Of a stretch of 26,034 nucleotides of DNA, positions 3,684-25,379 are shown piece by piece. The position numbers and the translations under genes were made by a program. Position 1 is the stretch's first letter, and each line of letters opens with the position of its first letter. The DNA is from a virus: IMG/VR virus record IMGVR_UViG_3300035145_000662, positions 1-26,034 of that record; one strand, written 5' to 3'. The notes beneath the pieces are model-generated. The model searched no databases. It saw nothing but the letters and a program-made list of their open reading frames with translations, and was not told the origin of the DNA.

Positions 3684-6169
3684 CAGAAAAACTCCATAAG
3701 ACTACCAGTGCGTTCTGCTTTCCAACCGATGCATTCTAGCACAGTACGGAGGGGTTCGTAGAACGCTTTTTCAAATTGTTTGTCAAAATCAATATACTTC
3801 TCAAGACCGAACTCACTAGGTAGGTCTTGGAAGAACGAGATCACGTTCTCCTGTATAGGATTCGGTTCTCTCAGGTAGATGAATTTAATCTTTTCACCTT
3901 CCTGAATACGTGCGTGTTTGTTTTCGATCTTATGTTTTTTGATATAGTGATTGTATAACAAGGCACCACGCACGTGAATGGGACAACCCTTCTTGTAGAT
4001 AGTAGGAGGGTGTGTATAATTACCAATGTTATTACAACCACGAGGGAAAGCAACCTCAGCAAGATTTGCTTTACGTGTTTCTTTCTTGCACTTAGCAATG
4101 TAGTCAATAACTGTATCGTTATCAGACGACATAATTAAACGGAACGCTTTCTTCAGTCGATCTCTAAAGAACTGAGGAACAGAGGAGCGTGCTGTCTCCA
4201 AACCCATAATCTTCATCTTGGGTTCAGCATATGCAACACCTTCGCTGTTCCACACGTTGAGAATGTATCGCTTTTTCGCGGTCCAGATGCCACGGTCAGC
4301 GATGTTCTCACGCTTCATTTGCATTTTTTGGTCGTATGCCGAAACGTACGTTGCAAGCTCTTGATATGAACGTTCAATAAAAGGTTCCAGTTTCTCCTGG
4401 CAGATCTTATCAAGTATAGAAACAATTGCTGCTTTATCGCCAGACTTATTACTAAAAAATTTAGTAACAAGAGGTCCAAGATTAAGATAGATCGAATCAG
4501 TATCTGATGCGATAACATAATCTACACCTTTCGTTTGCAAAACGGTATTTAGATACGAATTTACTTCGCCTTCAATCCACCTAATCGAGACTTGACCGCT
4601 GAGAGTAATCGCCTCAGCATTTGCCAACTTGTAATACCTGAAGTATTGGTTTCCGATGGCACCATAGGCAGAGTTGAGTTGAATCTTCCTTGCCATCTGG
4701 AAGTTGTTGTATCTAGAAATGGTCTTTTGAAGTGAATCGGACGGAGATGCTTCGTATTCTTGTTTTGCATCCAGCATCTTACGCTTGTAAACCTTTCGTT
4801 CATCATAGATTTTCTCCATAAGTTCGGGAAGGAAACCACGCACATCCTTACGGTACATAGCACCGTTTGCACAACAGGCGTAGTCTTCATTAGTTATAAA
4901 GTCACGGTTGAGGATACGATCAACCGATGCTTTAGGATGTCTCTCATCGACCAGGGTCTCAGGAGAGATGTTGTACTGCATAATCAAGTGCGGGTACAGA
5001 GAGTTAAGGTCAAAGTTTACAACCCAGTCATAGATTCCTGGGACAGGTTCCTTAACGTATGCACCAGCATATTGAACAGACTTCTCTTGCTTAATCTTAG
5101 GAGGAATAGCAATGTTCCTCTTACGCAGATAGTTGTAGATGATGGCATCCCACACTCTTACCTGAGAGAACACGTCCTCCAGGTTTACCTTAGCATCATA
5201 TGCCAAAGTGAATGCGAGATCCATCAACTTCATCTTGTCTTCAAGTTGATCGACAAGACGCACGTCGTGGATGTTGTAGTCCACGAACTTTTTCCAATCG
5301 TTTGTGTAGAACTGTTTGAAGGTATCGTACTCGCTGTGATCGAGTTTTTGTTGACCAAGTTCTACAAAAGCGATATGGTCGAGTCGGTAAGACTCCTGGT
5401 TTGTATAAGTAAACTTCCTATACAAATCCAGGTAGTCCAGCACAGTAATCCCAGAAACATCAAAAGAGATGTTCTTACGTCCTTGGATATTAATTTCACG
5501 GGAACTGAGAAGTTTCCAAGGTGAAAAGAGTTTCGTAGTCTTGTCTCCAAGAATACGAGCAAGACGGTTGCAGATATAGGGAACGTCGAACAGTTGTACG
5601 TTCCAACCTGTAATAACGTCAGGATAATTCTCGGTCCACCAAGCGAGGTACATCTTGAGTAGTTCCTGCTCATCAGCACAGTGTGTGTAGTTCACTTCCG
5701 CCTTAGAGGTCTTGTAGGGGCGTGAACCCCATACGTGATAGATCCCTGTAAAACTGTCCTTGACGGTGATCAGCAAGATCTCCTGATCAGCAGATTCAAT
5801 GTCTGGGAATCCATTCTCTGCTGCGGTTTCGATATCGATCGTGAACACACGGATCTTACTAGGATCGTAATCAACTTCACCAGGGAAGTTGTCACTGATC
5901 CATTGATACAAGTATGCCTGATTACCATACACAGTAAACCCTTCGACATCTTCATAACGTTTGCAGAATTCTCTGCAGTCACGGATGCCTCCAGGTTGAA
6001 TAGGGCGGACAGGTTCACCCTCAAGTGTGGTGTATCCTGTTCCGCCCTTATTAGACTTCACATACAATGTAGGATAGAATTCATCACGAATACGGACCTC
6101 TTGGTGTCCGTCATAACCACGAACAAGAATGCGATCACCGACTTGATCAACGTTCTTGTAGAATCTCAT
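3683..6169 (-). CDS. 43: DNA polymerase, family B (T4 gp43)
   Basis: This is the complete 828-residue replicative polymerase with 3'-5' proofreading. Exonuclease motifs are D112-I-E114 (Exo I), ITGWN near 187-190 (Exo II) and Y298-xxx-D302 (Exo III). Polymerase motifs are DLNSLYP at 387-393 (motif A), K495...N499-S-A-Y502-G (motif B) and DTDS at 556-559 (motif C). The extreme C-terminus ends LMEFF, as expected for the clamp-binding tail that docks on gp45. The gene is uninterrupted, with no intein, intron or split. The ATG at 6169 lies 23 bases inside the preceding small gene. Confidence 0.98.
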
Positions 6170-19718: not shown

Positions 19719-20764
19719 TACGCTACTTCACAGGATTCAATATATAGCGATTTCATTAAACTCTTAAGTGCGGTTTTATCTACCTCTAGCGTCACTTCGT
19801 CAAGGTATTCGTCCAGTAAAGTCAGTGTGTCTTTGACATCGATTGCCTCCGCTTCGGGGTCATCGAACACACCAACTTTCTCAACAACCTTTACATCGAG
19901 AGCACCTGCATCATAGAGACTGTTAAGCATATGCTCAAAGTCTACGTAGTTTGTTTTTTGCTCAACAATAACCTTGACATACTTGTTTGCATAATCTTTG
20001 GGTTCGATCAGTGCAGGTGCGTCTGCTGAATCATCCCAATAGATTTTTGCAAAAATTTCATATGGGTTTTTAACCATACGAATTTTGAATGTTTCTGTAT
20101 CAAAGATGTGGAAACCACGGGTGTCACCGTGATCATTCCAGTACATCTGATACGGGTTACCAAGGTAAGTAACGTTGCCCTTAGAATTCTTATGGTGGAA
20201 GTGTCCGCTCAGGACAACATCAAAGTCAGAAAAAAGGTTAGCGTCCATTCCACTATCATAGCGGAATCCAGGGCGAGCAAGATACCCACTGAGCTCAAGA
20301 TGACCCATCGCAACTCGCGAGGAGGAATTACGAATCGTCTTAATGGACAGGTCATAGTTGTCAGCGCAAATCCAGGGAACAAAAAGTACACTGGTTCCAC
20401 CAATCTCGGCATCAGTGGGTTCCTTGTACACTACCACGTTATCATATTCACTCAACAATAACTCAACGGTGTTAACCTTGTTAGTGTTTTTGTAATATGC
20501 GGTGTGGTTACCGACTACGGTATGGACGGTAATGCCCATATCGCGGAGAACATCATAGTAGTTCTCCTTTGCCCACTCAAGAGAAACAAAGTCGATACTC
20601 TTGCGGTTGTCAAAAGTATCGCCAAGGTCGAGAACGGTTGTGATTTTATGCTTCTTCAGGTAAGGGAAGAAGACGTTATCGTAGAACCTCTTGTAGTAAT
20701 CGAGATAGATCTGACTACCCTTGTGACTACCAAAGTGCTGATCTGTGATAACGGCAACCTTCAT
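19718..20764 (-). CDS. 47: recombination nuclease subunit (T4 gp47, Mre11/SbcD family)
   Basis: This 348-residue calcineurin-like phosphoesterase is the nuclease partner of gp46. Metal-binding motifs in order are D8-Q-H10 (DQHFG), GDTFDNR at 48-54, G-N86-H87 near 85-87, and GHFHH at 187-191. T4 gp47 is 339 residues. The ATG at 20764 overlaps the gp55 stop by four bases. The order 55-47-46 is standard for T4-like phages apart from the DUF3110 gene. Confidence 0.97.
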   Translation of the reverse strand: MKVAVITDQHFGSHKGSQIYLDYYKRFYDNVFFPYLKKHKITTVLDLGDTFDNRKSIDFVSLEWAKENYYDVLRDMGITVHTVVGNHTAYYKNTNKVNTVELLLSEYDNVVVYKEPTDAEIGGTSVLFVPWICADNYDLSIKTIRNSSSRVAMGHLELSGYLARPGFRYDSGMDANLFSDFDVVLSGHFHHKNSKGNVTYLGNPYQMYWNDHGDTRGFHIFDTETFKIRMVKNPYEIFAKIYWDDSADAPALIEPKDYANKYVKVIVEQKTNYVDFEHMLNSLYDAGALDVKVVEKVGVFDDPEAEAIDVKDTLTLLDEYLDEVTLEVDKTALKSLMKSLYIESCEVA

Positions 20765-21252
20765 CGCGACATTCTAATTTCAATGTTTTCTTTAATGGAG
20801 TTGAGTCCCGAATCGGATTCGTTCATCCCTGACATACTACCATCAAACCGATCAGAGTGCAACACCTCGGAGTAACCACAGCGTTCAATTAACTTGCTAC
20901 GGATCTCAAGTTGTTTTTTCTCCTTCTGAATCCTACGTAAGAAGGCGTAGTAGATGATCTGGGTAAAGTAAGCGAAAGGATTCTTGGACTTTGCAGGATC
21001 GAAATTATCAACATACTGGAGACAGTTCTCAATGCCATCACAAACCATATCTTCACGGAACATATAGTTCACGAAGTTAGGCTTATAACTTAAATGAGTG
21101 GCAATCTTGAGAAAACACTCGGCAATGTAATTGGGAAGGAGAGGACGAGGCAATTCGTTTTCTTTAGCGAAATGCACTTTCTCTCGGTACTCCACAATGG
21201 CGGCAAGAAATTCCTTATTGTTTACGTAGTACTCGGTTTTAACTTTCGCCAT
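20761..21252 (-). CDS. 55: late transcription sigma factor (T4 gp55)
   Basis: This 163-residue protein matches the conserved core of gp55: MVCDGIENCLQYVDNFDP, NPFAYFTQIIYYAFLRRIQKEKKQ, corresponding to sigma region 2 that recognises the late -10 octamer TATAAATA. It binds host RNA polymerase and acts with gp45 to switch on late genes. It is shorter than T4 gp55 (185). The -10 box at 21275-21280 lies 23 bases before its ATG; no clear Shine-Dalgarno is visible. Confidence 0.93.
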   Translation of the reverse strand: MAKVKTEYYVNNKEFLAAIVEYREKVHFAKENELPRPLLPNYIAECFLKIATHLSYKPNFVNYMFREDMVCDGIENCLQYVDNFDPAKSKNPFAYFTQIIYYAFLRRIQKEKKQLEIRSKLIERCGYSEVLHSDRFDGSMSGMNESDSGLNSIKENIEIRMSR

Positions 21253-21274: not shown

Positions 21275-21283
21275 ATTATAACA
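21275..21283 (-). promoter_or_regulatory. extended -10 promoter for gp55
   Basis: The minus strand reads TGTTATAAT, an extended -10 identical to that of hsp20. No -35 box is seen 16-18 bases upstream. The bases just before form a weak ACACA-TCT-TGTGT stem. It would give gp55 a leader of only about 15 bases. Confidence 0.6.
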
Positions 21284-21330: not shown

Positions 21331-21359
21331 TTGACAGACCCTCTAAATATCTCTATAAT
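21331..21359 (+). promoter_or_regulatory. perfect consensus sigma-70 promoter on the plus strand
   Basis: TTGACA (21331-21336), a 17-base spacer and TATAAT (21354-21359) match the consensus at all twelve positions. It points toward higher coordinates, against every gene in the window. The expected start is near 21366; the RNA would begin close to a short AACAG-TGTCG-CTGTT hairpin and run antisense to the gene at 21389-21796 and then uvsW. No plus-strand gene is present. It could make a regulatory antisense RNA or an origin primer. Confidence 0.75.
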
Positions 21360-21388
21360 AACAGTGTCGCTGTTGAGAAACACCAGAG

Positions 21389-21796
21389 CTACTTTCGGTA
21401 GAGACGTTCAAAGAGCTTACGGTGATCATCAATTGAACCTAAGTAACCCATATTGCGTGAGGGTTTGATGCGATTGGATCCTGCCTTGCGGAAAACCATT
21501 GATATGTTTTCCTGATAGAAGGTCGCGATCGATTCGTTTGCTTCTGTAATGGTTAGTATCTTATCACTATTCATTAAGAAAAAGTCATCCTCATCCATAG
21601 CAGATTTTATCCAGAGGTCAAGTTTGAATCCTTTGATGACAGAAAACTCATCTTTCGATGTTGCTTCTTCTACCAACATAGGATTCTGTAACATAACAAC
21701 GTTGTCCTCCTCGGACCACGCGACGAGCGAGATCAGTTCTTCTCCAGTGACTAGTTTTAATACACCGACAAAAGGTTCTGCTAAGGGATCTATCAT
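21389..21796 (-). CDS. small hypothetical protein with Sm-like pattern, paralogue C
   Basis: This 135-residue acidic protein lies 3 bases after uvsW. It starts FVGVLKLVTGEELISLVAW, then VVMLQNPMLV, a DLWIKSA segment, and DKILTITEANESIATFYQE. The order of these blocks matches paralogues A and B near gp43, so the three probably arose by duplication. The longer C-terminal tail (about residues 105-135) is unique. Its 3' end is the target of the antisense promoter at 21331-21359. The function is unknown; an Sm/SH3-like barrel is a guess from the strand pattern. Confidence 0.85.
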   Translation of the reverse strand: MIDPLAEPFVGVLKLVTGEELISLVAWSEEDNVVMLQNPMLVEEATSKDEFSVIKGFKLDLWIKSAMDEDDFFLMNSDKILTITEANESIATFYQENISMVFRKAGSNRIKPSRNMGYLGSIDDHRKLFERLYRK

Positions 21797-21799
21797 ACG

Positions 21800-23257
21800 C
21801 TAAAACTTGGAACGGACTTTGATAATTTCATAATCAAATCTTTCTTCTTGATAGATTCTGACACGCTCCTCAAAATGTTTGTAAGTGAAATTCTTCCACT
21901 CACCACGTGTGATATCATCAGCGATATCATACAGAGTAGCAACGTGTTTGTCTTTAGACTTTCTCAACACACGCCCGATGGATTGCAGGTTACGAATCCG
22001 CGACTTGGACGGTGACGCAAAGATAACGTTATGAAGTTTTTTGATATTGATACCCGTGGAGAACGTACCGTAAGACGCAATGATGACAGCGTTGGATTCC
22101 AACTCCGTAATCCTGCGGACTTCCTCACGGTCTTCTACATCCACACCCCCGTGAACGAAAAATACTTTCCGCTCTGTGCTATTATTTATCATCTCATAAA
22201 GAGGTTCTCCGTGACGCTCTACGTAGTTGAACAGCACTAGAGTGTTACCATCCAAATCGTTGACCAGATTCTTGATTAAATTATTACGCTTTGGATGCGT
22301 GATCAAATAATCAATTTCATCGTGGTAACTATCGAATGTACCCCACTCGTGTTTAAGCACTAGACATTTAACCTTAAGTGGAGTAAGATGACCTCCTTCC
22401 ATAAGGTCCTTTGTTTTCACGAGTTGTTCGCAAGGACCGAACAAACCTTCTAGGATCCACTGATGTGTTTGAGTACCATCTAGAGTTCCTGTGAATCCAA
22501 TGCGGTACTTTACATTATGACATTTTGTCATAATCTTAGTAAGAGATTTCGACTTAAACAAATGCGCTTCGTCACCAATGACACAATCGAATCTCTCAAA
22601 CCATTTACGTGGTTCTTTGTAAATGGATTGCCAAGTAGTAATTACTACGTTAGAATCCTTGTACTTATCCTGTCCAGAGTAAATCTTGTGACAATGCTTT
22701 TCGGCATTCCAACCGTAATCTTCAAAGTCCTTGTACATCTGTTCTACCAAACTAGTTGTGGGAACGATCAACAGGACTTTGCGTTTGTTGGCAACGTGCC
22801 AGCGAGCAATGCCGTAAACCATCAGAGACTTACCGCTAGCAGTTGGGGACAGCAGCAGTTTGCGATTATATTTCAGAGCTTCGTATACACCGTAGATTTG
22901 GTAGTTACGAGGTTCCAGTTTAGTAATACCCTTCATAAATGTACGGACACCAGACAAGGAAATTTCCTTGTTCATAGCATCAGGCATACCAAAGAATTTG
23001 TTGTCTTCGTATTCCAAGGTGTAGCGCATCGTCTTACACCAGTGCAGCAAATGCTCCGTGAGTCCACCGTAGATTTCACCATTGCCAGGAGAGTAGAGAC
23101 GAATCTTTCCGTCCCACACCTTCTTCCTGTATAACGGCATAAACTTTGCCTCAGGAACCTCAAACGTAAAATACTCAGAGAGTTCACGATGAATATGAGG
23201 TTCCGTAGTAATAACGTTAAAGACTTCGTTTTTCTTCTGAAGTTTAATGTCCGCCAC
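21800..23257 (-). CDS. uvsW: UvsW DNA/RNA helicase (SF2)
   Basis: UvsW unwinds branched DNA and R-loops and moves replication from origin-dependent to recombination-dependent mode. The preferred start is GTG 23257, giving M(V)-ADIKLQ, which aligns with the T4 start (MDIK) and has GGGAG about 10 bases before it; the longer frame to ATG 23284 lacks a ribosome site and overlaps uvsY more. In this 485-residue numbering, Walker A is PTASGKS at 138-144 and the DEAH box is at 229-232. IGFTGT and an arginine-rich QSIGRVLR motif VI follow. Confidence 0.95.
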   Translation of the reverse strand: MADIKLQKKNEVFNVITTEPHIHRELSEYFTFEVPEAKFMPLYRKKVWDGKIRLYSPGNGEIYGGLTEHLLHWCKTMRYTLEYEDNKFFGMPDAMNKEISLSGVRTFMKGITKLEPRNYQIYGVYEALKYNRKLLLSPTASGKSLMVYGIARWHVANKRKVLLIVPTTSLVEQMYKDFEDYGWNAEKHCHKIYSGQDKYKDSNVVITTWQSIYKEPRKWFERFDCVIGDEAHLFKSKSLTKIMTKCHNVKYRIGFTGTLDGTQTHQWILEGLFGPCEQLVKTKDLMEGGHLTPLKVKCLVLKHEWGTFDSYHDEIDYLITHPKRNNLIKNLVNDLDGNTLVLFNYVERHGEPLYEMINNSTERKVFFVHGGVDVEDREEVRRITELESNAVIIASYGTFSTGINIKKLHNVIFASPSKSRIRNLQSIGRVLRKSKDKHVATLYDIADDITRGEWKNFTYKHFEERVRIYQEERFDYEIIKVRSKF

Positions 23258-23690
23258 TTCTAAATTTCTCCCACTCAATAGCATTTTTAATCTGATATTG
23301 ACGGGCAGAGATTTGTTTGAGAACAGACTCCAGGAAATATAGAATCATCTCGTAGTACTTTATCTTTGCGGAATGCTTGGCAAGATCCTCATCCGCATTA
23401 AGAAACATCTCTACTTCGTCTTTAGTTGTCAACTTCAAATCGAAAGGAACATCCTTGTACGCTGACGCAGGTGCCTTCTTTTTGTAATACATCCACTTCT
23501 CTTTGTAGAGAAACTTGTAAGCAAACTCCTGATCAATCATTCGCGATTTGTAATCGCAAAAGAGATCCAGGTACTTGGAGTGAAGATATGGTGTTTCATT
23601 ACAAGCTTTAAGGAAGTCGGGATAACCGTCGTTCCCATCTAGGACAGTGGAGTCGTGCTTCCACATATCCTTCAATTGATCAAGGTTCAT
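23244..23690 (-). CDS. uvsY: UvsY recombination mediator
   Basis: This 148-residue protein (T4 UvsY: 137) begins MNLDQLKDMWKHDS and has the conserved C-terminal half LTTKDEVEMFLNADEDL, KIKYYEMILYFLESVLKQI and ARQYQIKNAIEWEKF, matching T4 UvsY. It helps UvsX replace single-strand binding protein on DNA. It overlaps the gp3-like gene by 11 bases and uvsW by 14, the conserved uvsY-uvsW pairing. Confidence 0.92.
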   Translation of the reverse strand: MNLDQLKDMWKHDSTVLDGNDGYPDFLKACNETPYLHSKYLDLFCDYKSRMIDQEFAYKFLYKEKWMYYKKKAPASAYKDVPFDLKLTTKDEVEMFLNADEDLAKHSAKIKYYEMILYFLESVLKQISARQYQIKNAIEWEKFRSGGH

Positions 23691-24916: not shown

Positions 24917-24942
24917 AAAAAAAGGGGGGTCCAAGACCCCCC
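24917..24942 (-). terminator. strong intrinsic terminator after the 59-residue gene at 24963
   Basis: On the minus strand GGGGGGTC pairs with GACCCCCC (24924-24942; eight pairs, TTG loop), followed by seven T (24917-24923). It ends the short cistron at 24963-25142. Confidence 0.93.
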
Positions 24943-25333: not shown

Positions 25334-25358
25334 AAAAAAAGGGGTCCCGAAGGACCCC
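25334..25358 (-). terminator. UUCG-capped terminator of the major capsid gene
   Basis: On the minus strand GGGGTCC-TTCG-GGACCCC (25341-25358), with an extra A-T pair at the base, is followed by a run of T (25334-25340). It lies 21 bases after the gp23 stop and is a textbook terminator for a highly expressed structural gene. Confidence 0.95.
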
Positions 25359-25379
25359 TGAGGAATATGTGATGATGGA

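Follow-up and report, generated by a model that had tools for sequence, protein, structure and literature searches.

Early sigma-70-like promoters have been described for the T4-like cyanophages S-PM2 and Syn9 (PMC2984593), and the promoter reported here shares with them the form TTGACA-17-TAnAAT. Since alt, modA, modB, motA and asiA are missing in T4-like cyanophages (PMC2984593), it is presumably the host RNA polymerase in unmodified form that reads early promoters, and the ordering of early and middle transcription in these phages has been described as unclear (PMC2984593). Antisense transcription in a T4-like cyanophage likewise has a precedent in CfrI, an antisense RNA of about 225 nt at the 3' end of psbA that is known in S-PM2 and predicted elsewhere (PMC2984593, PMC5931967). 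In T4, a promoter in the uvsW-uvsY neighbourhood belongs to ori(uvsY)/oriF (PMC3016281).

The promoter described here departs from each of these systems. Unlike the other cyanophage early promoters, it has a block of inverted-repeat sequence over the start, there are only one to three copies in a genome, and among these there is always an antisense one next to gp55. Whereas CfrI lies at psbA, this promoter lies opposite phrog_471-uvsW and is shared by essentially all members of the group. It differs from T4 ori(uvsY)/oriF in that it is of a sigma-70 early rather than a MotA type, points in the reverse direction, has no unwinding element and lies on the other side of uvsW. Antisense promoters of the lambda paQ, or P(aQ), type oppose late or delayed genes, and that of lambda needs the activator CII. 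The idea is similar, insofar as opposing transcription sets developmental timing, but there is no sequence relation. The promoter or its transcript may already figure in a published start-site list, so claims of novelty should be made with some caution.

Sequence and setting of the promoter

The window, by which we mean the whole stretch of DNA analysed, is a virus record of 26,034 bases with T4-like gene content, in which every recognised gene is on the minus strand. At 21331-21359 (+) it carries TTGACA (21331-21336) and TATAAT (21354-21359), a match to the sigma-70 consensus at 12 of 12 positions with a 17-bp spacer, inside the 16-18 bp range for such promoters. The -35 hexamer is unchanged or almost so in relatives, and the family consensus of the -10 is TAnAAT. 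When both strands of the 26 kb were searched for TTGACA-N15..19-TATAAT this was the single match, against 0.01 expected per window from shuffles, and the perfect plus-strand promoter proposed in an earlier note is thereby confirmed. Looser 9-of-12 matches are not in excess (18 in the window, 19.8 by chance), so it is the perfect match, together with conservation, that makes the case for the promoter.

The promoter is located in the gap between the gene for an Sm-like protein (phrog_471 / PF16243; 21389-21796, -) and gene 55, which encodes the late sigma factor gp55 (phrog_234; 20761-21252, -), and it points away from gp55. Beyond the Sm-like gene lie those for the helicase uvsW (21800-23284, -) and the recombination mediator uvsY (23244-23690, -), and the site separates the uvsY-uvsW-phrog_471 block, with its structural genes, from a gp55-gp47-gp46 block. 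The earlier note was right that a plus-strand transcript would run opposite the Sm-like gene and then uvsW and uvsY; as a small correction, the gap that holds the promoter is the one between gp55 and the Sm-like gene, and uvsY is thus some 2 kb off. Its statement that no plus-strand gene exists held up, in that none of ten plus-strand ORFs (nine of the longest, plus an 84-aa ORF at 21549-21803) had a PHROG match.

On the opposite strand, an extended -10 (TGTTATAAT; 21276-21281, -) belongs to a probable divergent promoter of gp55, as suggested by its sequence and by a divergent gp55-facing promoter in relatives. It has no good -35 in the window; most relatives have a TTGACA/TTTACA form. A T4-type late promoter (NATAAATA) was not found at the promoter site, and matches to it in the window occur only at 22190 and 9113 (-). 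Judged by its sequence, we consider 21331-21359 to be a genuine sigma-70-type promoter, apparently of the early class and strongly conserved in T4-like cyanophages and their relatives.

Conservation and the inverted-repeat block

Loci were gathered by gp55 similarity alone and supplemented with cultured phages; the promoter was not used as a criterion, and loci that had been fetched with the promoter pattern itself (L085-L163) were excluded from the prevalence count. The 97 gp55 loci, which include cyanomyoviruses of Synechococcus and Prochlorococcus and one Methylophilales phage, represent 94 upstream gaps that differ from one another, or 87 once clustered. The pattern TTGACA-17-TAnnnT-N5/6-TGT, facing away from gp55, is exact in 87 of the 94 distinct gaps, and the other seven carry a variant with one altered -35 base, a spacer of 16 or 18, or TGC replacing TGT. 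Two controls, the sense strand and reversed sequences, each gave four variant matches and no exact one. The 13 nearest relatives, which were found with the Sm-like protein, all retain both boxes. Loss of the boxes in close relatives had been proposed as a refutation; the promoter survives that test, with the two boxes present in 13/13 nearest relatives and in 94/94 gaps (exact or variant). One perfect site could turn up by chance once per 100 such windows, but a functionless match is already refuted, since the promoter, its orientation and its block are common to all 94 distinct gp55 gaps. The annotation of the Methylophilales phage, Melnitz, places a minus-strand hypothetical ORF within the gap (L206, 3932-4027); its -35 is weaker, and its block is retained and matched (AGCTATGT) to its second copy.

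Among relatives the hexamers and the 17-bp spacing are retained and the spacer sequence drifts. Information per column amounts to about 2.0 bits in TTGACA, 0.46 in the spacer, 0.90 in the block and 0.26 past the block, a profile that indicates selection on the promoter and some 20 bp behind it rather than on a longer RNA. This bears on the suggestion, also made in the earlier note, of a separate small RNA gene acting in trans. Such a gene would suit a conserved promoter with no plus-strand ORF behind it, but conservation drops to background about 15-20 nt past the start, there is no nearby plus-strand terminator in the window, and the covariance models of Rfam 15 gave no match at the gathering threshold and only chance-level ones below it. 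A trans-acting RNA is consequently unsupported, because no conserved RNA body follows the promoter, and we consider it very unlikely.

The block lies immediately 3' of the -10 and reads AACAG-TGTCG-CTGTT in the window (21360-21374, +); its arms covary, and away from this site it turns up only behind that promoter. A conserved continuation downstream of it, GAGAAACACCAGAGC (21375-21389, +), is present in most of the window's clade. Blocks are 15-20 bp long, with the general form AAC-nn-TGT-n(n)-GGGTT or a variant of it, and their arms flank the TGT at the predicted transcription start, which in the window falls near 21366, the centre of the block. Many loci have AACTC-TGTCAA-GGGTT and others AACCT-TGTAG-AGGTT. 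Among cultured phages, the TGT of the block is near 84438 (-) in S-PM2 (AJ630128), 123697 (-) in Syn9 (NC_008296) and 120708 (-) in P-HM2 (GU075905). In 66 distinct blocks the arms formed 3.80 pairs with their own partners compared to 3.35 when permuted (sd 0.065). The window element thus belongs to the class as we define it here, namely TTGACA-17-TAnnnT followed after 5-6 nt by TGT within covarying arms.

As single-stranded DNA, the window block is predicted to form a hairpin of -2.6 kcal/mol (z -3.2). A perfect hairpin in every block was rejected, as AACAC-TGT-AAGGGTT types are imperfect. We also rejected, as the main reading, an RNA hairpin in the transcript, given that the start lies mid-block and only half of it would be in the RNA, while a hairpin in RNA from the opposite strand fails because sense copies elsewhere share the same layout. 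With the start at the centre of the block, an RNA hairpin is a less likely explanation of the symmetry than a DNA feature (operator or open-complex element). The most likely role of the block is to set promoter strength or timing, whether as an operator or as an open-complex element that a putative phage-encoded factor would read.

Further copies of the promoter and block

A scan of viral contigs for the promoter followed by AACTCTGT yielded 79 loci. At 64 the neighbouring gene is gp55, and at the remainder the pattern precedes other genes. Most complete genomes contain the pattern one to four times, and the reversed control contained almost none; the Bellamy genome had no match to the exact pattern, its gp55 copy having a 16-bp spacer. 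The 19-nt block was also searched for with no promoter requirement in S-PM2, Syn1, S-CAM4, S-RIM2, Syn9 and ACG-2014b. Beyond the gp55 copy, the next-best matches in five of these six genomes were exactly behind TTGACA-17-TAnAAT; the second copy in S-CAM4 has the first eight bases of the block only.

In the window's own clade, each of the 32 loci that have the AACAG/CTGTT variant is a gp55-antisense copy, and no other copy was found. A near-complete relative of 187 kb has the gp55-antisense copy alone; nine of its ten strong promoter matches are on the other strand, and the sole same-strand one is this element. In most other lineages the promoter and block are found once or twice more per genome, sense to small genes and in nearly all cases 9-64 nt ahead of a small ORF. 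This position just before small ORFs marks the module as a working promoter type. Sense copies at L248, L250, L253, L255, L260 and L086, and in Syn9 near 52770, precede small proteins of phrog_718 (function unassigned), a candidate early host-takeover or regulatory protein. The extended promoter also stands ahead of a thyX-like gene (L090, L119, L143) and of a RusA-like resolvase/nuclease of phrog_244 (L133, L138, L153).

The block of the gp55 copy matches the other copies in its own genome at 84%, compared to 63% when permuted between genomes (p<0.0002), while the corresponding values for the spacer are 43% and 37.5%. Matches with no block-like sequence (Syn9 163318, P-HM2 44586, G001 59148, ACG-2014b 155684), together with those of ACG-2014f and Melnitz, were left out of this comparison by hand, which does not affect the block-only scan. 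That the block matches within a genome and differs between genomes suggests that it is recognized by a sequence-specific factor, one that is not the same in every phage. Gene conversion is a weaker alternative, since the spacer should then be carried along too. Together, these sequence patterns point to a distinct class of early promoter in which the initiation or operator element is specific to the phage.

Predicted antisense transcription opposite uvsW and uvsY

Ahead of the promoter, no good plus-strand terminator is predicted in 2.8 kb before 24206, and to our knowledge Rho is absent from cyanobacteria. A long antisense RNA is therefore plausible, and we predict one opposite phrog_471, uvsW and uvsY (21366-23690, +). 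We hypothesize, with a probability of just under one half (about 0.48), that an early antisense promoter restrains phrog_471-uvsW-uvsY until gp55-driven late transcription starts. According to this hypothesis, unmodified host RNA polymerase would use the promoter early in infection, and transcription would run antisense across phrog_471, uvsW and probably uvsY, so that the sense genes would be held down by polymerase collisions, by sense-antisense duplexes, or by both. Once gp55 displaces the host sigma factor the early promoter would go silent and the sense genes would be freed. The inverted-repeat block could serve in this scheme as an operator or open-complex element through which a phage factor would tune the strength or timing of the promoter.

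The repression of uvsW-uvsY is something that we infer from the geometry. UvsW of T4 is a late product that unwinds R-loops (PMC3016281), and early repression of uvsW would thus make biological sense. The late status of the uvsY-uvsW operon in the window is assumed by analogy with T4; a search for a NATAAATA late promoter just ahead of uvsY in the window found none. Behind the major capsid gene are two strong intrinsic terminators (24924-24942 and 25340-25359, -), and uvsY-uvsW probably have promoters of their own as a result.

Conservation of the promoter could equally serve the regulation of gp55. The antisense promoter would then adjust the gp55 promoter next to it, by an overlap of -35 boxes, polymerase competition or supercoiling, and the antisense RNA itself would be inert. 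Nearly all relatives do have a back-to-back gp55-facing promoter (at least 9 of 12 positions at 78 of 81 loci), and the palindrome TTGTCAA/TTGACAA often serves as both -35 boxes. However, the distance between the two promoters ranges from overlap to tens of bp, and in the window the gp55 promoter is an extended -10 only. At one locus (L118), phrog_471 and gp55 are separated by an inserted gene (5023-5678) that resembles 2OG-Fe(II) oxygenases; the promoter element has stayed next to phrog_471, some 600 bp away from gp55, and adjoins another gene. This single case favors a role toward uvsW over one toward gp55, and we regard the tuning of gp55 as unlikely, if the most serious of the rivals.

The antisense transcript might instead protect or process the uvsY-uvsW-phrog_471 mRNA, in the manner of cyanophage antisense RNAs acting against host RNase E. 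Antisense transcription in Kyanoviridae, and antisense protection in another cyanophage, are both mentioned in PMC10976474 with reference to Stazic et al. 2016. However, the RNA would need to coexist with the late mRNA, yet the promoter is of an early type, and we consider protection improbable.

The earlier note had also raised an R-loop origin of the T4 ori(uvsY) kind, in which the promoter transcript would prime leading-strand synthesis. Proximity to uvsW and uvsY, a number of one to three copies per genome and the early-type promoter thought to be used by T4 oriE (PMC3016281) would all suit an origin. However, ori(uvsY) of T4 requires an A+T-rich unwinding element as well as a middle-mode (MotA) promoter (PMC3016281). 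T4-like cyanophages lack motA and asiA (PMC2984593), and the -35 here is a perfect TTGACA and not a MotA box. No unwinding element was found: A+T content over +0 to +150 is ordinary (median percentile 0.52-0.54), the first 100 bp past the promoter in the window are at the 48th percentile, and the moderately A+T-rich region from +100 to +200 (0.80) is the 3' coding end of phrog_471. Moreover, 90% of loci have a C-rich RNA-like strand, cumulative GC skew in six genomes does not turn at the promoter site, and the other copies of the promoter serve as ordinary small-gene promoters. T4 ori(uvsY) is, furthermore, the sense promoter of uvsY itself, and the window promoter is accordingly not homologous to it. 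On these grounds the origin can largely be set aside, its likelihood being still lower than that of a trans-acting RNA.

Returning to restraint of phrog_471-uvsW-uvsY, a wider joint claim can be made, which we offer as tentative and somewhat doubtful. The copies would form a shared promoter class with a phage-specific palindrome at the start and a putative phage factor, and the antisense member, the most conserved of them, would time the late recombination genes. This member would then be an early-to-late switch of the phage that is absent from T4.

Our results lead to the predictions that S-PM2, Syn9 and other cultured phages should have an antisense transcript opposite uvsW, that each genome should have a small set of co-regulated promoters, and that an undiscovered factor should have a specificity that tracks the palindrome. 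A backward-pointing promoter that is present in all the members examined, with a co-evolving start palindrome, would thus provide a concrete and testable handle on the order of transcription in cyanophages.
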